Positions 1-37,155 of a DNA stretch of 55,359 nt are shown piece by piece. The notes under the pieces are model-generated. The model made no database searches. It was not told the DNA's origin and saw only the letters and a program-made list of their open reading frames with translations. How positions within the stretch are numbered: the first letter of the stretch is position 1; the number at the start of each line of letters is the position of its first letter. The DNA is from an uncultured SAR86 cluster bacterium (GTDB lineage: Bacteria > Pseudomonadota > Gammaproteobacteria > Magnimaribacterales > D2472): the NCBI GenBank assembly GCA_902596165.1, contig CACJSU010000010.1, positions 1 through 55,359 of the forward strand. The letters are read 5' to 3'. Both the position numbers and the translations under genes were made by a program.

Positions 1-65
1 TCAATGTATGGAACCACATTAATATCTGCGTTTAACTTTTTCCTTTTGCCAATTCTGTATATCAA
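1..65 (-). CDS. tolR: TolR, N-terminal fragment (runs off the window)
   Basis: Reading the minus strand from 65 gives a TTG codon followed by IYRIGKRKKLNADINVVPYI. The NADINVVPYID-type stretch is the conserved start of the ExbD/TolR family, just before and into its single membrane segment. TolR forms the proton-driven TolQR motor that energises TolA in the cell envelope. The proposed TTG overlaps the tolQ stop codon (62-64), the translational coupling expected for tolQ-tolR. Only about 21 codons are present, so family identity rests on this short match plus position. No ATG is available in frame, so the TTG start is an inference. Confidence 0.85.
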   Translation of the reverse strand, partial: MIYRIGKRKKLNADINVVPYI

Positions 66-742
66 AGCTTTGCTTTAACCGTTTGTCTATACAGAATACT
101 GGCCAACTCTTCGCCAAATACGGAGGATTGCTGCAATTGGGTATCAGAATCTGATGCAAACCTATTGTATGCAACTACGGCTGGTATTGCAGCAAAAAGA
201 CCTAGAGCTGTTGCAACTAGAGCTTCTGAGATTCCAGGGGCAACAGCATTAATGGTTGCTTGAGTGGCATCAGAAAGACCTTGAAATGAATTGATAATTC
301 CCCAAACTGTTCCAAACAATCCAACATATGGGCTTACCGAGCCTACGTTAGCTAAAAAAGGGAGGTGATTCATTAATGATTCTTCCTCTCTTGCCAATGA
401 TACTCTTATAGCCCTGTTAACGCTTTCCAAGTCTTCGATTGTGATTTGCTGACCCTCACTAAGCCTTAAAAATTCTCCAAATCCATGTTTAAAAACTCGT
501 AAAGATCCCACCAATTCATAATTAGGAGTTTCGTCGATACCCTCATAAAGCTCACTTAAATCCTTGCCTGACCAAAATTCTTTTTCAAATTCTTGGTTGG
601 CTTGTTTGATTCTATTCAAATTAAAATATCTTTCAAAAATAACTATCCATGAAATGATTGAAACCATTAACAATAAAATCATTACTAATTGAACAATCAG
701 GCTCGCTTGGAGAAATAAATCTATAACCGAAAAGTCATCCAT
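62..742 (-). CDS. tolQ: TolQ, Tol-Pal motor proton channel subunit
   Basis: The product is 226 residues, the usual TolQ length. It has one membrane segment near the N terminus (about residues 15-35) and two more in the C-terminal half, within the MotA/TolQ/ExbB domain. The conserved region around residues 130-180 (VGSVSPYVGLFGTVWGI, then a PGISEALVATALGLFAAIPA-type segment) is diagnostic. With TolR it forms the inner-membrane motor that drives TolA and Pal during outer-membrane constriction. It follows ybgC by 1 base and overlaps the presumed tolR start, the standard ybgC-tolQ-tolR order. ExbB is the alternative, but the ybgC neighbour favours TolQ. Confidence 0.96.
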   Translation of the reverse strand: MDDFSVIDLFLQASLIVQLVMILLLMVSIISWIVIFERYFNLNRIKQANQEFEKEFWSGKDLSELYEGIDETPNYELVGSLRVFKHGFGEFLRLSEGQQITIEDLESVNRAIRVSLAREEESLMNHLPFLANVGSVSPYVGLFGTVWGIINSFQGLSDATQATINAVAPGISEALVATALGLFAAIPAVVAYNRFASDSDTQLQQSSVFGEELASILYRQTVKAKL

Positions 743-743
743 A

Positions 744-1160
744 TTAATTCTTAAATAAATTTAATAAACCTAAAGGAAAAGCTTTTGGTTTTCCTGAGTT
801 ATTGTCAATAAAACAAACTTCCACTTCGCCCTTGCAAATGAGTGTATCATTTTTTGAATTCAAAATAGATTGAAAAAATATAGTTCTTGCTTTGCTAACC
901 AGCTCTATTTCAGTTTTTACTGTCAACTCATCTTCTAATATTGCGGGATGGTAATAGGAAAGATTAATTGTTTTTATAACGTAAGACTCATTCCTTTTTG
1001 CAATTGCATCCGTTTGAGATAAGTTATTCTCAATCAAAAACTGAGATCGAGCTCTTTCAAAGTATTTAAGATAATTTGCATGATAAACGACGCCCTGAAA
1101 ATCTGTATCTTCCACATAAACCCTGAGGTGAAAATCTTTAGACTTGAAATGAGGATTCAT
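744..1160 (-). CDS. ybgC: YbgC, Tol-Pal-associated acyl-CoA thioesterase
   Basis: A 138-residue single hot-dog domain of the 4-hydroxybenzoyl-CoA thioesterase type. The signature VEDTDFQGVVYHANYLKYFERAR (given here only by its parts EDTDFQGVVYHANY and FERAR) lies near residues 16-38. The second Asp of EDTD (about D20) is the expected catalytic residue. The family hydrolyses short or medium acyl-CoA and associates with the Tol-Pal system. An upstream in-frame TTG at 1169 is possible, but ATG at 1160 gives an N terminus like other YbgC proteins. It overlaps the preceding nuclease gene by 23 bases. Direct linkage of ybgC to tolQ is normal; the absence of ruvA and ruvB before it is not. Confidence 0.93.
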   Translation of the reverse strand: MNPHFKSKDFHLRVYVEDTDFQGVVYHANYLKYFERARSQFLIENNLSQTDAIAKRNESYVIKTINLSYYHPAILEDELTVKTEIELVSKARTIFFQSILNSKNDTLICKGEVEVCFIDNNSGKPKAFPLGLLNLFKN

Positions 1161-1560
1161 GTTGCTCAATATCTACTTGAAAGAGGTACCTAAGAATTTC
1201 TACAAAATCTTCCCACATTAAATCAATCGTCATGGGTGAAAAATCTAGCTCTGGAATTAAAGTTCCAGCAAGTATCCTCACTTTGATTGGTCGACGATTA
1301 AACTTATAGATTAAAGCTGGAAATTCTCCCTCTCCAGTAGCTGCTAAAACTTGATCCCACCAATCTTGAGATGGTTCAGAACCATCACCGTATCTTTTGC
1401 ATTCCAAGCACCATCTACCTAATTTTAAATCAGGCAATTCTTTTGTTCGTGTTTGCTCAAGAATTCTTTTAACTGGCTGATTTAACCCTAACTGCTCAAC
1501 AAGAAGATTGCCAATTTCTCTCTCAAAATTAGCGCCTTTAGTTCTAGAGTTGATTGCCAC
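1138..1560 (-). CDS. Small PDDEXK nuclease, Hjc/phage-resolvase-like, in the ruvCAB position
   Basis: 140 residues with no similarity I can see to RuvC (RNase H fold). The visible pattern is a PDDEXK nuclease: SRTKGANFEREIG (E13, E15), LPDL (D44) and LECKRYG (E53, K55). These are followed by a helix and a strand resembling the VLAVKF strand of archaeal Hjc (here QVLAAT then PALIYKF). Phage resolvase-like nucleases often begin with NSR-K-G-FER. The start is GTG at 1560, with a GAGGAG ribosome site overlapping the end of yebC, so it is tightly coupled. It lies between yebC and ybgC, where gammaproteobacteria normally carry ruvC, ruvA and ruvB. I infer a Holliday-junction or other structure-specific nuclease, possibly of phage or archaeal-type origin. 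The catalytic residues are seen; the substrate is not known. Confidence 0.7.
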   Translation of the reverse strand: MAINSRTKGANFEREIGNLLVEQLGLNQPVKRILEQTRTKELPDLKLGRWCLECKRYGDGSEPSQDWWDQVLAATGEGEFPALIYKFNRRPIKVRILAGTLIPELDFSPMTIDLMWEDFVEILRYLFQVDIEQHESSFQV

Positions 1561-1562
1561 AA

Positions 1563-2300
1563 TTACTCCTCTTCAGTAAAGTCCTCGGGAAATTCAGCAT
1601 TCGTGTGAACTTCTTGCACATCATCAAGATCATCCATAAAGTTCATGATTTTCAGAACTTTCTCAGATGCTTCTTGATCTAGACTAACCAACGTGTCTGC
1701 TCTCATAGTATTTTCAGCTAACAATGTTTCAATATTTTTTTTCTTGAAAGCCTCTGTAATAGAAGATAAATTTGTTGGAGTGGAAATGATTTCGAAATAG
1801 TCTTCAGTCACAGTAAAATCGTCTGCTCCAGCATCTAATGCAATCTCCATAATTTGATCTTCATCGTGAGATAAATCCACATGTACAACTCCTAGCTTAT
1901 TAAAAAGATAGGCAACAGAACCATCTGTGCCCATATTACCTCCGAATTTTGAAAAAGCATGGCGAACATCAGCAACAGTTCTATTTCTATTATCCGTCAT
2001 TGTCTCCACAAGAATAGCAACGCCATTAGGGCCATAGCCTTCAAAAGTAAGCTCTTCTATTGCGCCCATTTCACCTGTCCCAGAGCCCTTTTGAATTGCT
2101 CGTTTGATTGTATCTTTAGGCATATTTGCAGCATTCGCTTTGTCCAAAGCCAGTCTGAGTCTTGGATTATCGCTTGGATCAGGGCCACCTTTTGCAGCAA
2201 CTGTTATTTCCCTTATAACCTTAGTCCAGATTTTTCCTCTAGAGGCATCCTGCCTTGCTTTTCGATGCTTAATATTTGCCCATTTTGAATGTCCGGCCAT
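1563..2300 (-). CDS. yebC: YebC/TACO1 family protein
   Basis: 245 residues, full length for the family. It opens with MAGHSKWANIKHRKARQDA, the highly conserved start, followed by GGPDPSDNPRLRLAL and IEELTFEGYGPNGVAILVE. Family members have been described both as DNA-binding regulators (PmpR in Pseudomonas) and as translation factors that relieve ribosome stalling, related to mitochondrial TACO1. Which role holds here cannot be read from the sequence. The ATG directly abuts the aspS stop codon, and the gene is coupled downstream to the small nuclease. The aspS-yebC pair is conserved in gammaproteobacteria. Confidence 0.97.
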   Translation of the reverse strand: MAGHSKWANIKHRKARQDASRGKIWTKVIREITVAAKGGPDPSDNPRLRLALDKANAANMPKDTIKRAIQKGSGTGEMGAIEELTFEGYGPNGVAILVETMTDNRNRTVADVRHAFSKFGGNMGTDGSVAYLFNKLGVVHVDLSHDEDQIMEIALDAGADDFTVTEDYFEIISTPTNLSSITEAFKKKNIETLLAENTMRADTLVSLDQEASEKVLKIMNFMDDLDDVQEVHTNAEFPEDFTEEE

Positions 2301-4067
2301 CTATTGCTCCCGTTCAAAGGTTGATTTGATGTTTAACTCGTCAAGTTGATCATCAGAAACTATGCCGGGAGCATCTGTAAGTAAACAAGATGCACTTTGC
2401 GTTTTGGGAAAGGCAATAACATCACGGATGTTAGTAGTGTCAGATAGCAACATCACAATTCTATCTAGACCAAATGCAATGCCTCCATGAGGGGGACATC
2501 CAGATGATAATGCTGACAAAAGGAATCCAAATTTTTCCTTGGCTTCATTCGAAGAAATTCCGAGTATAGAAAATATCTCTTTTTGCATTGAGGGCTCATA
2601 GACTCTTAAAGATCCACCACCAAGCTCATATCCATTCAGAACAAAGTCATATGCGCATGCTAATGCATTATCTGGATCATTTTTTAATTCATCAATTGTT
2701 ACAGCCGGCAAGGTAAATGGATGATGCAAAGATGTAAGATTGTTTTCTTTATTTCTTTCAAACATTGGAAAATCTACTATCCAGCATGGCGCCCATGAAT
2801 AATTCATTAAACCTAAGTCTTCACCAAGTTTTTTTATCAGTGAGCTCATTGAGAGATTAACAATGCCTGCCTTTCCAGCTCCGAAAAATATAATGTCATT
2901 ATTTTGCGCATTGATAGAGGAAAGAATTGAATCAATAGTTTCCTGTTGAAAAAATTTAAGAATTGGTGACTGAAGTCCATTTTCCTGATCAAGGTCTACG
3001 ACTTTTATATATGCGAGACCTTTAGCACCCAACTTGCCAACATAATCTGTATACTCATCAATTTTTTTTCTTGTCAAAGATGCAGCGCCTGGAACCTTTA
3101 AGGCTACAACCCGAGATGCAGGATCATTTGCAGGACCGGAAAATACTTTAAATTCTTCATGTTTCACAAACTTAGAGATGTCATTAAGCTCAAGCGGGAT
3201 TCTTAAATCTGGCTTATCACATCCATACTTTTCAATAGATTCTTTGTATGTAATTCTTGGTACTTCTGTTTTTTGATAGTCAGTAAATTCAGAAAGCAAT
3301 GATGTAACCAGATCCTCTCCAAGGTCTAGGATTTCTTCAGCAGAAACAAATGAAGCTTCAATATCAACCTGAGTAAATTCGGGCTGTCTATCAGCTCGCA
3401 AATCTTCATCTCTGAAGCATTTAGCGATCTGATAGTATTTATCCATCCCACCAATCATTAACAACTGTTTAAATAGTTGAGGAGATTGAGGCAATGCAAA
3501 AAACTCACCAGGATGCACTCTACTTGGAACAAGATAATCTCTTGCTCCTTCAGGTGTAGCTTTTGTCAATATTGGAGTCTCAATTTCATGAAAATTATTA
3601 TTTTCTAAAACAGATCTTATCTTTGAAGTGATCTGCGATCTTTTAACCAACCTTTGATTAACATCAGGACGTCTTAAATCTAAAAATCTATGTTTGAGCC
3701 TTACATCCTCATTAACATCTTGATAGTCATCAAGAGGAAATTGAGGAGTCACAGCTGAACTAAAAATCTCTAAATTGCTTGCTTCAATTTCTATCTCTCC
3801 GGTAGCCATTTTTGGATTTATGGCGCCTTCAACTCTCTTTCTTACTAACCCTTCGATATGAACAACATACTCGCTTCTGCAGGAATCAGCAGTATTAAAC
3901 ACTTCTTTCAAATCGGGATTAAAAACAACTTGGACTATTCCATGCAAATCACGAATATCTAAAAAAATTACGCCGCCGTGATCTCTTCGTTTATGAACCC
4001 ATCCTGAAATCTCAATATTGCTACCAATGTCTGAACTATTTATATCTCCGCAATAATGTGAACGCAT
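2301..4067 (-). CDS. aspS: Aspartyl-tRNA synthetase, probably non-discriminating
   Basis: 588 residues, the bacterial type with an N-terminal OB-fold anticodon domain, a class II catalytic core and an inserted GAD domain. Class II motif 2 is visible as [16 protein letters not shown], and motif 3 as [13 protein letters not shown] near the C terminus. The anticodon domain reads [14 protein letters not shown] with His at position 30, and a Gly at about position 81 (VEGAIN). In Pseudomonas aeruginosa the equivalent His31 and Gly83 are features of an enzyme that charges both tRNA-Asp and tRNA-Asn. Discriminating enzymes such as that of E. coli have Leu at the first site. I therefore infer a non-discriminating enzyme that would need GatCAB. 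It lies between fmdB and yebC, as in Pseudomonas. Confidence 0.97.
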
Positions 4068-6951: not shown

Positions 6952-7959
6952 TTATTTCTTAGCAGCTTTCTTAGCAGAAGGTATATATGCCTTTCTAATC
7001 TCTTTAACCAAGCTGTCTCTGATTTTAGTATTTTCTCTTAGAAACTTACTTGCATTGACCTTTCCTTGACCAATCTTTTCTCCATTATGGCTATACCATG
7101 ATCCAGATTTTTCAACCAACTCAAGCTTTTGACCAAGCTCTAAAATTTCCCCCTCGGTATTAATTCCCTCGCCATACATTATCTGAAATTCAGCTTGCTT
7201 AAATGGAGGGGAAACTTTGTTTTTTACAACTTTAACTCTTGTCTCATTTCCCACAACTTCCTCGCCTTCTTTAACCGCACCTATGCGTCTAATATCCAGG
7301 CGAACTGAGGAGTAAAATTTTAGGGCATTTCCACCAGTAGTGGTTTCTGGATTACCAAACATTACACCGATCTTCATTCTGATTTGATTGATAAAAATAA
7401 CCATAGCATTAGATCTTTGGATATTGCCTGTGATTTTTCTAAGCGCTTGCGACATCAATCGTGCCTGTAATCCAACATGATGATCACCCATATCACCTTC
7501 AATTTCAGCACGAGGTGTCAGCGCTGCAACAGAATCTACAACAATCAAATCTACGCTACCTGATTTAACAAGCATGTCAGTTACTTCTAGTGCCTGCTCT
7601 CCAGTATCTGGCTGAGATAATAAAAGCTCATCTACATTCACACCTAATTTTTCAGCATAATTTGGATCCAACGCATGCTCAGCATCTATAAATGCTGCCG
7701 TACCACCGGCTTTTTGACATTCAGCAATGGCTTGAAGCGTTAATGTTGTTTTTCCAGACGATTCAGGACCAAAAATTTCAACTACCCTTCCCTTTGGAAG
7801 ACCTCCAATTCCTAGAGCAATATCTAAACCAAGAGAACCGGTTGAAACAGATGGGATGTCTACTATCTCCCTATCTCCCATTTTCATAACGGTTCCTTTA
7901 CCGAATTGTTTTTCTATTTGTGATAAAGCTTCACTTAGGTTTTTATCTTTGTCTGACAT
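6952..7959 (-). CDS. recA: RecA recombinase
   Basis: 335 residues. Walker A GPESSGKT is at residues 64-71, followed by the conserved core ([39 protein letters not shown], quoted as short motifs) and a short basic tail ending KKAAKK. It catalyses strand exchange and stimulates LexA self-cleavage. The strong AGGAG ribosome site sits 6 bases before ATG. The promoter overlaps a near-consensus LexA operator (see the separate entry), so SOS control is expected. No recX follows. Downstream is a 64-base gap to the thiolase start with no clear terminator. Confidence 0.99.
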
Positions 7960-7971
7960 AATGAACTCCTT

Positions 7972-7991
7972 TACTGTATATTTATACAGTA
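7972..7991 (-). promoter_or_regulatory. LexA (SOS) box at the recA promoter
   Basis: The 20 bases on the plus strand read TACTGTATATTTATACAGTA. They fit the gammaproteobacterial CTG-N10-CAG consensus, including the TA flanks, with one difference from the ideal E. coli box. The site lies 13 bases upstream of the recA ATG. A plausible promoter (TTTACT, 16 bases, TATACT) runs into it, so bound LexA would block the -10 and start region. This predicts a LexA repressor elsewhere in the genome. Confidence 0.93.
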
Positions 7992-7998
7992 TATTACA

Positions 7999-8032
7999 AA
8001 TTTGATAAAAGTAAAATAAATATTATCAAATT
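7999..8032. repeat. 10-base inverted repeat between recA and fdxA
   Basis: The arms AATTTGATAA (7999-8008) and TTATCAAATT (8023-8032) are perfect complements separated by 14 bases. The right part covers the probable -35 region of recA (TTTACT on the minus strand, 8010-8015). It could be an operator for recA or the divergent fdxA, or a chance dyad in AT-rich DNA. It is unrelated to the LexA box in sequence. Confidence 0.45.
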
Positions 8033-8095
8033 CATGCTGACTTGTTCATTACTCATTGTTAAAATCTTTTTTAATCTAATTTTTCACCATAAACA

Positions 8096-8419
8096 ATGGC
8101 ATTCATAGTTACAGAATCATGTATCAAGTGCAAGCACACAGATTGTGTTGAAGTCTGTCCTGTTGATTGTTTTTACGAGGGTCCAAACTTTCTAGTTATC
8201 CACCCAGAAGAATGTATTGATTGTGCATTGTGTGAACCAGAATGCCCGGTAGATGCTATTTTCTCTGAAGATGAACTTCCCTCTGATCAGATAGAATTTA
8301 TTGAAATTAATGCTGAATTAAGTGAAATTTGGCCAAATATTACAGAAGAAAAAGATGAGTTGCCCGAAGCCAAGAAGTTTGCAGAAATTAAAGAAAAGAA
8401 ACATCTTCTTGAGCGCTAA
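8096..8419 (+). CDS. fdxA: 7Fe ferredoxin (FdxA, [3Fe-4S][4Fe-4S])
   Basis: 107 residues, the Azotobacter ferredoxin I type. The cysteines fall at 9, 12, 17, 21 and 25, then 40, 43, 46 and 50. This gives the CxxxxxxxCxxxC...C and CxxCxxCxxxC arrangement with the extra Cys at 12 typical of the family. The C-terminal half is the usual charged extension. It is a small electron carrier; the partner is not evident. It is divergent from recA, and in related bacteria fdxA lies close to mutS and recA. It ends 11 bases before the convergent nlpD stop. No obvious ribosome site precedes its ATG. Confidence 0.95.
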
Positions 8420-8430
8420 ATTATATTTGA

Positions 8431-9081
8431 TTAATTAAAAAGTGAGTTTAAAACTTCTGCTCTGAGGGGTTGGCCATTTTTTCTCAGCTGAAATCGCAAC
8501 ATAGGGTAAGCTGCCTCTGAATTGCCAAGTTGAGCTATCCTGGCTCCCTTTGTTACCTCATCCCCTTGCTCAACAAATATTTTATCGCAATGAGCATACA
8601 GGCTTAGGTAACCATCAGGATGAGAAATCATTACCAAATTTCCATAACCCGGGATATCAGGACCAGAGACCACTACCTTTCCAAGGTTTATTGAGTGAAT
8701 GGGCACACCTATAGACTCTTTAAAAATTAGCCAAGCATCCTCTTTTATAGCTAAGTTTGATTTACTTCCCAAAGGATGATGCCATTCAATAGATTGAGAT
8801 TTTTCCTGGAACTTATTTTGGCCCTGTACTTTAGAGATGAATAACTCTTGATTGGGATAAATAATATATGGCTTTTTTAAATTATTATTTTTAATCAGCT
8901 GCTCAGAATCTAAATTATATTTTATTGCAATAGACCAAATAGAATCCCCTGGCTGAACAATATATGATTTATCAGAAGAAGATAAGAGATTTGTATAAGA
9001 CTGCCTGAAAGAATCTATGCTGGAGCAGCTTGAAGCTATCAAAATTAAAGTGATTAATATTTTTTTGTTAAATAAACTCAT
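8431..9081 (-). CDS. nlpD: NlpD-like lipoprotein with LysM and degenerate LytM domains
   Basis: 216 residues. A lipoprotein signal runs to Cys19 (IASSC, with Ser at +2 so outer-membrane sorting is expected). A LysM peptidoglycan-binding domain (YIVQPGDSIWSIA..., about residues 40-82) and a C-terminal LytM/M23 domain follow. Zinc ligands of active M23 peptidases are missing: YAHCD stands where HxH-type sequences occur, and LRFQLRKNG replaces LHFE. As in E. coli NlpD it should therefore be an amidase activator (AmiC) for daughter-cell separation and not a hydrolase. It overlaps popT by 4 bases (ATGA). The usual downstream rpoS is absent. It is much shorter than E. coli NlpD (379 residues). Confidence 0.88.
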   Translation of the reverse strand: MSLFNKKILITLILIASSCSSIDSFRQSYTNLLSSSDKSYIVQPGDSIWSIAIKYNLDSEQLIKNNNLKKPYIIYPNQELFISKVQGQNKFQEKSQSIEWHHPLGSKSNLAIKEDAWLIFKESIGVPIHSINLGKVVVSGPDIPGYGNLVMISHPDGYLSLYAHCDKIFVEQGDEVTKGARIAQLGNSEAAYPMLRFQLRKNGQPLRAEVLNSLFN

Positions 9082-9800
9082 AATAAAAATATGCCTGAAG
9101 AAATTATTAAGCCTGAAAAAATATGCATTAAGTTATGCTCATGAGAAGAGTAGATTGATAATATTGCTTTAGGTAATAGCAAAAGCGAGATCAAGCAGCC
9201 CACAGCAAACGGGATCAACAAACCAAAATCAAGCATTGCAACAGCCTGTATAACTGGGCCATAAACTCCTAAAACAACTAAAATAGCACTACCAGAAATT
9301 CCTGGTATTAAAAAAAATGAAAAAGCCAATATTCCACTCATAAATATATAAAACATGGAAGTATTCCCTGAGCTAATATTTAATTCTTGAAGAAAAAGCC
9401 CAATAAGCACTCCTAAAAATAAAAAAATGGCTAATCTCTTATCTTCAAATACATCTTTAAAATAATTAATAATATGAATGGCTAAAAGAATCATTAAAAA
9501 CCCCAAAGAAGATAGAAACAATTCTTCATGATTAATTAAAAGGTAGTTAATGCCCTTGGAGCAAATTATGACAGCAATCAGCATAGAAAATATCAAAGGC
9601 AAGGACACATTAAATTGAAATTTTTTTGAAAGCGATCGAAGGTTTAAAGTTAAATTTTTAAATCTTAAGTGACTTAAAATTGTCATTAGGTTTGGATAGA
9701 TCTTAAAAATAACAGCAACAGTGGCCCCTGAAATACCTGGAATGAGCTCTGCAACTCCCATGCAAAATCCAGCTAAAGAATATTTAATTTGATTGTTCAT
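9078..9800 (-). CDS. popT: DUF368 polyprenyl-phosphate translocase (PopT-like)
   Basis: A 240-residue multi-span membrane protein with about seven hydrophobic segments. Two copies of the family hallmark are visible, AELIPGISGATVAVI near residue 17 and FFLIPGISGSAILVV near residue 160, reflecting an internal inverted duplication. DUF368 proteins have been shown to recycle undecaprenyl phosphate across the inner membrane. That function fits a position inside a run of cell-wall genes between pcm and nlpD, where other gammaproteobacteria usually have nothing or truD-type genes. The functional assignment is by family only. Confidence 0.85.
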   Translation of the reverse strand: MNNQIKYSLAGFCMGVAELIPGISGATVAVIFKIYPNLMTILSHLRFKNLTLNLRSLSKKFQFNVSLPLIFSMLIAVIICSKGINYLLINHEELFLSSLGFLMILLAIHIINYFKDVFEDKRLAIFLFLGVLIGLFLQELNISSGNTSMFYIFMSGILAFSFFLIPGISGSAILVVLGVYGPVIQAVAMLDFGLLIPFAVGCLISLLLLPKAILSIYSSHEHNLMHIFSGLIISSGIFLL

Positions 9801-9802
9801 GC

Positions 9803-10480
9803 TTAAATTTCTCCATTAGAAACACCTGGCAGCATTGGTACAAATGCAACTTCTTCATGAATTATTTCTTCATTTTCAGTTTCGCTTTTTTTGGTTATAA
9901 CATAAAGTTTTTGCTGCCCTTCTAGGCCAACAGGTATAACAAGCTTTCCTTCAACCACCAATAGATCAAGTAACTCATCTGGATATTGTCTTGGGGCTGC
10001 TGCACAAATAATTCCATCAAATTTTAAGTCTTCGTGCCAACCGTTAAACCCATCTGCATGCTTAACAATTACGTTTCTAATTTTTAGCTCGCTTAATTTT
10101 TCACGTGATTTTGCAACCAAAGGCTTAATCCTCTCAACTGCAAAGACATCTTTCGCAAAATGTGACAATACTGCAGATTGATAACCACAGCCTGAACCTA
10201 TTTCGAGAACTTGATTAAGAACTTTTCCTCTTTTTGATGTATTAGAGAGTAAAAGCTCTGTCATTCGAGCAACTATGTAGGGCTGAGAAATTGTTTGTTT
10301 ATAACCAATAGTTAATGCCCTGTTTTCATAAGCTCTACTCCATAAAGCTTGATCTAAGAAAATATGCCTTGGAACTTGACTTAAAGCATCGAGTACACGA
10401 AAGTCTTTAATTCCCATATCAAGCAGTTGTTGAATCATCTGATCCCTAACTCTTGTGAATGTAAAACCAGAACTATTCAC
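9803..10480 (-). CDS. pcm: Protein-L-isoaspartate O-methyltransferase
   Basis: About 225 residues, class I SAM methyltransferase. Motif I reads VLEIGSGCGYQSAVL, and the Pcm-specific text VPRHIFL, TISQPYIVARM and AAAPRQYPDELL is present. It repairs isomerised Asp/Asn residues in aged proteins. I place the start at GTG 10480, because an AGAGG ribosome site lies 9 bases upstream; an in-frame TTG at 10486 is too close to that site. It overlaps surE by 8 bases, in the conserved surE-pcm-nlpD order. Confidence 0.95.
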   Translation of the reverse strand: MNSSGFTFTRVRDQMIQQLLDMGIKDFRVLDALSQVPRHIFLDQALWSRAYENRALTIGYKQTISQPYIVARMTELLLSNTSKRGKVLNQVLEIGSGCGYQSAVLSHFAKDVFAVERIKPLVAKSREKLSELKIRNVIVKHADGFNGWHEDLKFDGIICAAAPRQYPDELLDLLVVEGKLVIPVGLEGQQKLYVITKKSETENEEIIHEEVAFVPMLPGVSNGEI

Positions 10481-11222
10481 AACCAAAAACCTCTCTATAA
10501 AGATCCCAATTTACAAAATCAGCACTTAAGTTGTAATCAAGAATTGAAATAGAAATATAATTTTGTTCAATTGCTTGAATATCTGTTCCTGCTTGGTCTG
10601 GCAAAAGTGAGCCTGAAGGTCCAAAACTGTAAAATTTAGAAGAATCTTTTTCCCTGATGAGGTCTGGAGTATCTGGAATACCTCTTTTACCTAGTGAAGT
10701 GATACATGTGCCCTTAATTTCTGAGGATGGTAAGTCTGGAAAATTTACATTCACAAGTAAATTTTGATCTGATGGAAGTTTAGAGACCTGGTTGGTAATC
10801 AATAATGATTGCTCTGAAATAAATCCTAAGTTTTTTGGATTGTACGCTGCCACAGAAAAAGCTACAGGAACATAGTCCAACCTTCTTCCTGCAATAGCAG
10901 CTCCAACAGTTCCAGAATAGAAAATATCCTCTCCAAGATTTGCTCCTAAATTAATTCCTGAAACAATCATTTCAATTGGCTCAGGAATCACTGATAACAA
11001 TCCAAGATATGAGCAATCTGCAGGAGTTCCAGAAACTGAAAAAATGTTTTGATTAATTTCTTTGACTTCAATTTCTTTTCGCAAGCTTATTGCTGCGCTC
11101 ATTCCACTACAATTTTCTTTTGGTGCAACTATAAAAACTTTATGCTGAGAACTTAAAGAGTTAAATAATTCAGTTATTCCAGATGCTTCATAACCATCAT
11201 CATTAGTTAACAAAATATTCAT
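10473..11222 (-). CDS. surE: SurE, 5'/3'-nucleotidase
   Basis: 249 residues. The start MNILLTNDDGYEASGI contains the metal-binding DD pair, and VSGINLGANLGEDIFYSGTVGAA is the second family signature (given in part). It is a survival-associated phosphatase acting on nucleoside monophosphates. The ATG overlaps the ispDF stop (ATGA, 11219-11222), and its end overlaps pcm. Confidence 0.97.
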   Translation of the reverse strand: MNILLTNDDGYEASGITELFNSLSSQHKVFIVAPKENCSGMSAAISLRKEIEVKEINQNIFSVSGTPADCSYLGLLSVIPEPIEMIVSGINLGANLGEDIFYSGTVGAAIAGRRLDYVPVAFSVAAYNPKNLGFISEQSLLITNQVSKLPSDQNLLVNVNFPDLPSSEIKGTCITSLGKRGIPDTPDLIREKDSSKFYSFGPSGSLLPDQAGTDIQAIEQNYISISILDYNLSADFVNWDLYREVFGCE

Positions 11223-12373
11223 GAAAATTTTTTTAAAGATGCAATTGCATATACAGCAATGCCATTTCCATTACCAATAACTCCCATTTTCTCTGTAGTA
11301 GTAGCTTTAACCCCAATAAAACTTTCTTCAATACTCAAAATTTCTCCCAGAGATTTTTTTATTTGATCTACATAAGGTCCAATTTTTGGTTGCTCACACA
11401 CAATTACAAAATCAATATTTTTTGGCTGCAGACCTTTTTCTTTTAATAAATCTAATGACTTTTCAATGATTTTTAAACTACTAAGATTTTTATTTTCTTT
11501 ATCAGTATCAGGAAAATAGTAACCAATATCCCTCAATCCCGCTGCACCAAGCAGAGCATCAGAGATGGCATGCAGAACAATGTCTCCATCTGAATGAGCC
11601 ATAATGGAGAGCTTGCAGTCTATAAAGACATCACCTAGAGTTAAACCATCGCCTTGCTGAAATCTGTGAAAGTCCACACCTCTTCCAATCCTCTGGTCAT
11701 TTCCAAGATGGCTAGCTAAATCTTCGATATAAGTTATTTTGATGTTTGATCTTTCTCCAGGCGCTGTTAAAACTTTAAATCCTGCATGCTCCATTGCTTG
11801 AGACTCATCACTCAAATGGAGATTTTCTTTTTTAAGCTTATCAAGTGCTATCTGAAGAGATTGACGGTAAAAAATTTGAGGAGTTTGAACGTGCAAAAAA
11901 TTTTCTCTATCAACTGGGATTATCTTATCGCCTTCTTTCATTCGCAGCGAATCTGTTACTGGAATTACTGGAAACACTCCTTGAGCAGATTCATCATTGC
12001 TAAGTTGAGCCAATAAATCTTCAAAATGATTCTTTTTAACCCAAGGTCTCGCAGCATCATGAACTGCTACAATCTCTACAGTTTCATCAACTGCTTCTAA
12101 GGCATTAAATACTGATTCACTCCTTGAAGAACCTCCTGAAACAACTTTAGCTCTTGGGTTCTCATAAAAAGATTGTGATTTAATTAAATCTTCATCTGCG
12201 TTAATAGCAACAATCACCTCTTTGATGCTGGACATTTCTAAAAATAAATTAACAGACTTCTCTAAGACAGTCTCATCTCCAATGTTTAAAAATTGCTTAG
12301 GTGTTGAGCCACCAAAACGACTGCCACTTCCTGCAGCAGGAATAATAACTGCAATGTTATCCTTGGGGTTCAT
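11219..12373 (-). CDS. ispDF: IspD-IspF bifunctional fusion (MEP pathway)
   Basis: 384 residues from ATG 12373. Residues 1 to about 225 are IspD, with the CTP-binding PAAGSGSRFGGSTPKQF and the AVHDAARPWV segment. From about 227 the IspF domain begins (IGRGVDFHRF, metal ligands D and H; AHSDGDIVLHAI; ATTTEKMGVIGNG). The two domains catalyse the cytidylyl transfer to MEP and the cyclisation to MEcPP in isoprenoid synthesis. Most gammaproteobacteria keep ispD and ispF as two adjacent genes; fused forms are best known in alpha- and epsilonproteobacteria. It sits after ftsB, overlapping it by 17 bases, the normal ispD place. A longer reading from 12415 is possible but would run further into ftsB. 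Confidence 0.96.
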   Translation of the reverse strand: MNPKDNIAVIIPAAGSGSRFGGSTPKQFLNIGDETVLEKSVNLFLEMSSIKEVIVAINADEDLIKSQSFYENPRAKVVSGGSSRSESVFNALEAVDETVEIVAVHDAARPWVKKNHFEDLLAQLSNDESAQGVFPVIPVTDSLRMKEGDKIIPVDRENFLHVQTPQIFYRQSLQIALDKLKKENLHLSDESQAMEHAGFKVLTAPGERSNIKITYIEDLASHLGNDQRIGRGVDFHRFQQGDGLTLGDVFIDCKLSIMAHSDGDIVLHAISDALLGAAGLRDIGYYFPDTDKENKNLSSLKIIEKSLDLLKEKGLQPKNIDFVIVCEQPKIGPYVDQIKKSLGEILSIEESFIGVKATTTEKMGVIGNGNGIAVYAIASLKKFS

Positions 12374-12659
12374 TAGAATTAGTCTCCTTAAATCTGAGAA
12401 AATCTTCATCTTCAAAGATTAAATTTAATTCTTCTCTAGCAAACTTTTCCGCATAAGCATCATTCTTTTGTTTGCTCTGGATCTCAAGCTCTAATTGATT
12501 ATTTTCCTCACCAATAATTTTATTTTCCATAAGAAGTTCTTGATTTTCATGCTGCAGAGCAGAGAACTTTCTTTTGCTGTCAATACCAAAAAAAATATCA
12601 TATATAGCAATAAAAATTAATAAGAGAAGTATTAAATTTAAAAGTTTAACTAATGACAT
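12357..12659 (-). CDS. ftsB: FtsB, divisome coiled-coil protein
   Basis: 100 residues from ATG 12659 (MSLVKLL). One N-terminal membrane segment (about residues 5-22) is followed by a coiled coil of repeated Leu/Asn/Glu/Lys residues and the FAREELNLI motif, equivalent to the conserved ARE-LG region of FtsB. It forms the FtsQLB complex with FtsL and FtsQ, both encoded in this window. The longer open frame back to 12746 would lie inside enolase and is rejected. The eno-ftsB-ispD order is typical of gammaproteobacteria. Confidence 0.9.
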   Translation of the reverse strand: MSLVKLLNLILLLLIFIAIYDIFFGIDSKRKFSALQHENQELLMENKIIGEENNQLELEIQSKQKNDAYAEKFAREELNLIFEDEDFLRFKETNSNEPQG

Positions 12660-36800: not shown

Positions 36801-36819
36801 TTTTTAAAAAAATTGAGTT

Positions 36820-37149
36820 GAGTTGATCTATAAGCCGGATTCTGTAATAAATGGCTATCTATCTAGGCAATATGTCACCATATTGCTCAAGCAACCTACC
36901 CGAATCCTAGACGAGTAGCCTAACAGGATTCCTATTTGGTTTTGCTTCAAAGTGGGGTTTACACTGCCGTATTTGTTACCAAATACGCGGTAGGCTCTTA
37001 CCCTACCATTTCACCCTTACCAATTTCTTGGCGGTATAATTTCTGTTGCACTTGCCGTGAGCTCACGCTCCCCAGGAATTACCTGGCACTCTACTCTGTG
37101 AAGTCCGGACTTTCCTCTAACAAAGTGTTAGCAGCCATCCGATCAACTC
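36820..37149 (-). ncRNA. rnpB: RNase P RNA (M1 RNA)
   Basis: Bacterial type A RNase P RNA, about 330 nt. The 5' strand GAGTTGATC (37149-37141) pairs with the 3' strand GATCAACTC (36828-36820) to form P1. Universally conserved blocks are readable on the minus strand: GAGGAAAGTCCGGACTTC (37117-37100), GGTAAGGGTGAAATGG (37021-37006), a TTTGGTAACAAAT element with the GGU that binds tRNA CCA, and CAGAATCCGGCTTA (36844-36831). It lies between rsmI and mraZ as in Pseudomonas. A run of seven T follows P1 and may aid termination. Transcription could read into mraZ, 83 bases downstream. Confidence 0.97.
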
Positions 37150-37155
37150 GTATGC

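Follow-up and report, generated by a model that had tools for sequence, protein, structure and literature searches.

An Hjc-like PDDEXK nuclease in the ruv position of SAR86 bacteria as a candidate Holliday-junction resolvase

The nuclease gene and the ruv position

We analysed a 55,359-nucleotide stretch (the window) of an uncultured SAR86 cluster bacterium (contig CACJSU010000010.1 of assembly GCA_902596165.1; genome of 26 contigs totalling 1.45 Mb, with 86.6% completeness), in which a small PDDEXK nuclease gene sits where ruvC, ruvA and ruvB would be expected. The minus strand carries, in this order, aspS, yebC, the 140-codon open reading frame (ORF) of the nuclease, ybgC and tolQ (Table 1). 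The initial annotation had described a 140-residue ORF with a GTG start coupled to yebC, and this was borne out; the ORF spans 1138-1560 on the minus strand, and its GTG lies 2 nt downstream of the yebC stop codon. At the other end, the ORF and ybgC, with its listed TTG start, share 32 nt. The GC content of the gene is 0.374, compared with 0.348 for the window.

The nuclease adjoins yebC on the same strand in 49/49 loci examined from the SAR86 order, spanning four families. These loci also contain aspS (49/49), tolQ (48/49) and ybgC (45/49), and a ybgC match is absent beside the nuclease in all four loci examined from family f4 (L056-L059). For comparison, we used 20 RuvC-positive Gammaproteobacteria from outside the order, hand-picked with long contigs preferred and not a random sample. 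Among them, yebC is upstream of ruvC in 17, tolQ is downstream in 13 and both conditions hold in 10. In the 12 stretches having a ybgC match, ruvC and ybgC are 1.7-2.4 kb apart, which leaves room for ruvA and ruvB (themselves not searched there). None of the 20 ruvC stretches has the nuclease. Therefore, the nuclease occupies a genuine ruv position. The conserved yebC-ruv-ybgC-tolQ order, on which the initial annotation relied, is real as a slot but not universal.

Table 1. Features of the window around the nuclease gene and elsewhere
Feature	Position	Strand	Remarks
Hjc-like PDDEXK nuclease (PF24608), candidate Holliday-junction resolvase	1138..1560	minus	140 aa, GTG start, ruv slot
E13 codon	1522..1524	minus	helix 1; aligns with helix-1 Glu of Hjc (ERE stretch); invariant 47/47
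D44 codon	1429..1431	minus	PD motif; metal ligand by analogy; aligns with Hjc Asp
E53-C54-K55 codons	1396..1404	minus	ExK of PDDEXK core; inside predicted strand 50-57
yebC, upstream neighbour	1563..2300	minus	Pfam TACO1/YebC match
aspS	2301..4067	minus	NCBIfam equivalog above cut-off
ybgC-type thioesterase, downstream neighbour	744..1169	minus	above YbgC/FadM subfamily cut-off, below stricter ybgC cut-offs (NCBIfam)
tolQ	62..742	minus	NCBIfam equivalog TIGR02796 above cut-off
recA	6952..7959	minus	TIGR02012, 554 bits
RNase P RNA, class A	36815-37150	minus	

Family, catalytic residues and predicted fold

The window protein passes the Pfam family PF24608 (PDDEXK_15; 30.2 bits against a cut-off of 27) and matches PHROG 244, labelled Holliday junction resolvase. 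The label of PHROG 244 also reads 'RusA-like'; this assignment was discarded, as the RusA family PF05866 does not match the window protein. We used two alignments, A1 with the copies of the SAR86 order and the broader A2 with 47 rows from the order, phage contigs and other genomes. All 47 rows of A2 matched PF24608 at E<=1, and all 47 also matched PHROG 244 at the limit used. Six rows matched PHROG 2002 ('Holliday junction resolvase') and one matched Mrr_cat (0.0022). Membership of the Pfam Hjc family itself is argued against, as the window protein had no match to PF01870 at E<=10; just 2 of the 47 rows matched it at E<=1 (best E 0.03). The RuvC profile (PF02075) did not match the window protein, nor did RecU in Pfam or NCBIfam at E<=10 (genomes not searched for RecU).

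The catalytic set of PDDEXK nucleases is E...(P)D...ExK. This set is conserved in A2: E13, E53 and K55 are present in 47/47 rows and D44 lines up in 43/47, with the remaining rows (L065-L068) showing GGxD one alignment residue earlier, a shift made by the aligner. K8, G9, R32, Q36, W68, Q70 and P81 are likewise invariant, and a W67-W68-x-Q70 motif is conserved in the nuclease family. Among the residues singled out in the initial annotation, E13, D44, E53 and K55 thus held, but E15 is not conserved (33/47 rows; K in family f4).

We compared A2 with the sequences of four solved archaeal resolvases by hhalign and obtained a probability of 94.8 and a score of 47.3, whereas 0/200 column shuffles scored above 22.7. 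The alignment places E13, D44, E53 and K55 on the conserved E, D, E and K of Hjc, which we take to be catalytic. A1 scored 26.3 (best shuffle 20.7); with the 1gef fragment as the sole template, A2 gave a probability of 69. Two specificity templates from phages, a single protein judged by inspection to resemble PDDEXK nucleases and a three-exonuclease alignment, scored 16 and 19 with probability <=1, values that belong to single- or three-row templates. A search of the PDB with the single sequence gave no match. The plain HMMER profile gave two matches there at E<=10, neither significant (9dcs, a DUF4176 protein, at 0.79 and Hjc at 0.96), and nothing was found among viral contigs to deepen the Hjc alignment. 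With the predicted single-chain model as query, the nine best rows of the structural alignment (VIA-align) were archaeal resolvases, at 16-22% identity. By profile and predicted fold, the nearest solved relatives of the nuclease are archaeal resolvases. The likeness to Hjc and phage resolvases, and not to RuvC, that had been noted from the letters is supported by these profile and fold results.

Recombination genes, distribution and evolutionary history

In the following, counts over genomes of the SAR86 order include the source genome. The RuvC profile had no match in the source genome or in any of the 100 genomes of the order (0/40 among those at least 90% complete); the same search was positive in 8/14 control genomes. 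RuvA_N was above its cut-off in 0/60 genomes of the order, and a sub-cut-off match of 19.8 bits in one of them (G074) was set aside. RuvB_N (PF05496) matched 99/100 genomes of the order and passed the cut-off of 27 bits in 92/100. These scores are weak: the best single match among the matches listed is 31.0 bits, and summing same-frame pieces gives up to 34.8, whereas in four other genomes the highest-scoring match reaches 245-280 bits. The four proteins that were classified, drawn from ten loci, turned out to be ClpX (L031, L036) or DnaX (L034, L037) and not RuvB. From their similar scores and frame lengths, the remaining matches, the source genome included, are presumed to be AAA+ cross-matches. 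We concluded that the genomes sampled from the SAR86 order lack RuvC and that neither RuvA nor RuvB is convincingly present in them.

RusA was not found in the source genome or in any of ten genomes of the order, while YqgF was present in 10/10 tested. RecG is present in the source genome, above its cut-off in 5/10 genomes of the order and slightly below it in three more. Two genomes at 95-96% completeness (G026 and G029) had no RecG-level match, just an Mfd-sized or weaker one. Of the genes proposed for a genome search in the initial annotation (ruvA, ruvB, ruvC, recG and rusA), only RecG is convincingly present in the source genome. The combination of an intact ruvABC elsewhere with a non-resolvase profile for the window protein was not observed.

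The window also encodes the strand-exchange protein RecA, and four-way junctions are therefore expected in this organism. In Gammaproteobacteria, mutS and rpoS usually lie in this neighbourhood of recA. On inspection by eye alone, the interval 6952-12415, from recA to a 398-aa ORF resembling an ispD-ispF fusion, has no ORF resembling mutS or rpoS.

The nuclease was found in 92/100 genomes of the order and in 20/20 genera. The eight genomes missing it are also without RuvC. Four gammaproteobacterial genomes from outside the order, namely G134 and G364 (family f39, 1.1 Mb, 97-98% complete), G120 and G218, have no RuvC match, weak RuvB_N matches and no nuclease. In an even draw of 370 gammaproteobacterial genomes, A1 matched eight, five from the order and three others that retain RuvC. 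RuvC is present in 346 of the 370; the 24 without it are the five of the order and 19 others, and the nuclease is in 0/19 of the latter. A2 matched seven of 397 genomes of the phylum, the source genome and six others. The neighbours in five of ten loci from outside the order were scanned and gave a terminase large subunit, a single-strand binding protein (two), an HNH endonuclease and one unnamed; the other five were read by eye only. With the window protein as query, there were six matches among 50,697 phage records. Within the genomes and phage records sampled, SAR86 alone has the nuclease as a fixed chromosomal gene.

We compared the window gene with 13 of 21 same-genus copies by the ratio of non-synonymous to synonymous substitution rates (dN/dS; Nei-Gojobori, many dS values being near saturation). 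This ratio ranged from 0 to 0.10 and was <0.05 in 11/13 pairs. The nuclease ratio was below that of ybgC in 13/13 pairs and below those of both tolQ and yebC in six. The nuclease is therefore under strong purifying selection.

Homologues of the nuclease are found in phage-type surroundings. The homologue of the Roseobacter phages CRP-811 and CRP-821 shares a stretch with a PD-(D/E)XK nuclease, a single-stranded DNA-binding protein and a helicase or primase. One member of the order (G037) has a second copy between a RecE-like exonuclease and a primase-helicase, in a phage-type module (L060:3504-8100). With queries taken from CRP-811 and G037, neighbours like these were observed in 18/80 viral loci; the 62 loci with none include many short contigs. 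Excerpts of a survey of jumbo phages describe phage proteins of the REase fold reminiscent of archaeal resolvases (PMC7824862).

We built a tree of 58 rows, rooted by choice on four matches from other Gammaproteobacteria, with phage rows chosen by similarity to SAR86 (best 80 of 427). The 29 cellular copies and two sets of phage rows form one clade (100/99), which phage rows adjoin at moderate support (85/83, 82/78). Families f1 and f4 are single groups, and f2 is weakly so. As the cellular clade sits beside phage rows, we favour a single acquisition from phage to SAR86, probably followed by vertical descent.

Some phage rows lie within the cellular clade. Rows L150, L152 and L158 fall inside family f3 (95/91), and the contigs L150-L159 encode five distinct nuclease proteins, three of which are in the tree. 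Row L149 is next to f1, weakly placed (87/24). L149 carries a tail-fibre gene, L152 carries virion and endolysin genes, and the virion protein of L152 is matched by all ten contigs L150-L159. None of the 80 viral loci has aspS, yebC, ybgC or tolQ. As the L150-L159 proteins lie inside f3, amid virion genes, phages may later have captured the host nuclease gene (L149-L159). In the approximately unbiased test, the alternative to such a recapture, a tree uniting all 29 cellular rows, was not rejected (p=0.058).

Resolvase role, rival explanations and known systems

The aforementioned data led us to consider, with good confidence, that the nuclease is a metal-dependent PF24608 PDDEXK endonuclease of Hjc-like fold and phage derivation, which took over both the resolvase job and the ruvC-ruvA-ruvB slot. 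In the genome, it very probably stands in for ruvABC, and it is probably the chromosomal Holliday-junction resolvase. The initial annotation had said that the gene could be a non-orthologous replacement of the resolvase. The lack of RuvC in all 100 genomes of the order, the PDDEXK_15 and PHROG 244 matches and the Hjc-like predicted fold support a firmer wording. Two points lowered our confidence slightly, both here and for the fuller scenario given next: most genomes have a RuvB_N match that formally exceeds the cut-off, and support for the nesting of the SAR86 copies among those of phages is no more than moderate. A fuller scenario, which we regard as evenly balanced, is that a phage nuclease displaced the whole RuvABC in the common ancestor of the free-living SAR86 order, was inherited vertically and acts as a stand-alone archaeal-type resolvase, and that phages later recaptured the host version.

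For the mechanism and ALTERNATIVES, the simplest view would be a stand-alone Hjc-type resolvase working in place of RuvABC. The SAR86 ancestor would have gained the nuclease from a phage, and ruvC, ruvA and ruvB would all have been lost. RecA would generate four-way junctions, which the nuclease, by analogy with Hjc, would bind as a homodimer. With E13/D44/E53/K55 and bound Mg2+ at its active site, each subunit would nick one strand of an opposite pair, and the paired nicks would yield ligatable duplexes. With RuvAB gone, branch migration, if needed, would be left to RecG or occur spontaneously. In excerpts of the jumbo-phage survey, phage RuvC is not accompanied by a RuvB-like ATPase (PMC7824862); a resolvase that works with no helicase is therefore plausible.

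The ruv genes could instead have been lost while the nuclease does other work (flap, nick or mismatch cleavage, or DNA degradation) and YqgF, RecG or a topoisomerase handles the junctions. This we consider unlikely, though YqgF is the strongest competitor for the resolvase role. Enzymes of the PDDEXK fold carry out many different reactions, YqgF is in all ten genomes tested, and RecG is above or slightly below its cut-off in eight of ten. YqgF has also been put forward, in the part of a genomic survey available to us, as a possible resolvase where RuvC and RecU are both missing; however, the same part has it co-occurring with RuvC/RecU in most genomes (PMC1193525). Deinococcus YqgF cut RNA and none of the structured DNAs tried, and the Mycobacterium protein differs from it, according to an excerpt of a study on these enzymes (PMC9601230). 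Moreover, the best fold and profile matches of the SAR86 nuclease are resolvases, and it sits in the ruv slot itself.

Archaeal Hjc enzymes are junction-selective. The SAR86 protein could be a broader, phage-like nuclease that resolves junctions and mainly clears Y-forks or other branched DNA. Its relatives are found within recombination modules of phages or next to virion genes, and resolvases of viruses typically discriminate less between branched DNAs, as outlined in excerpts of PMC3864405. However, the nearest predicted fold is that of the archaeal Hjc family, and conservation across the order argues for a tuned cellular role, so we consider this quite improbable. A prophage remnant or defence nuclease present by chance is hardly credible: the family is a phage one and G037 has its second copy, but the same slot is occupied in 49/49 loci over four families, purifying selection is strong, PADLOC gave no match, and the GC of the gene is close to that of the surroundings.

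SAR86 bacteria are abundant in the ocean, and the order has apparently swapped three ruv genes for one phage-type Hjc-like nuclease. If so, the resolvasome is replaceable as a unit, a function is suggested for a widespread small gene, and SAR86 offers a concrete system for asking whether a bacterial resolvase needs RuvAB. In the open-licence papers searched, SAR86 was not joined with the Holliday junction or RuvC, and no title or abstract listed dealt with such a replacement. The available part of PMC1193525 places RuvAB and RuvC/RecU among the recombination genes that nearly all bacteria have and that are little affected by horizontal transfer.

Among known systems, the archaeal Hjc and Hje enzymes (PF01870; 1gef, 1ob8, 2wcw) resemble the SAR86 nuclease in its predicted Hjc-like fold. 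It differs from them in being 16-22% identical, scarcely matched by Pfam Hjc, of bacterial or phage source, and in the conserved W67-W68-x-Q70 of its family. By score, it is a member of the PF24608/PHROG 244 phage endonucleases; however, the phage members of PF24608 examined lie in recombination modules or beside virion genes, whereas the SAR86 copy is chromosomal and in the ruv slot. RecU of Firmicutes and Mollicutes lies beside ruvAB in only two genomes of the survey excerpted here, and these lineages retain RuvAB; RecU in Firmicutes is a precedent for the replacement of RuvC alone, whereas SAR86 seems to have lost RuvAB too (PMC1193525). RuvC (PF02075) has its genome position and presumed job in common with the SAR86 nuclease, but, as given in an excerpt of PMC3834835, its fold is that of the retroviral integrase superfamily, unlike that of the SAR86 protein.
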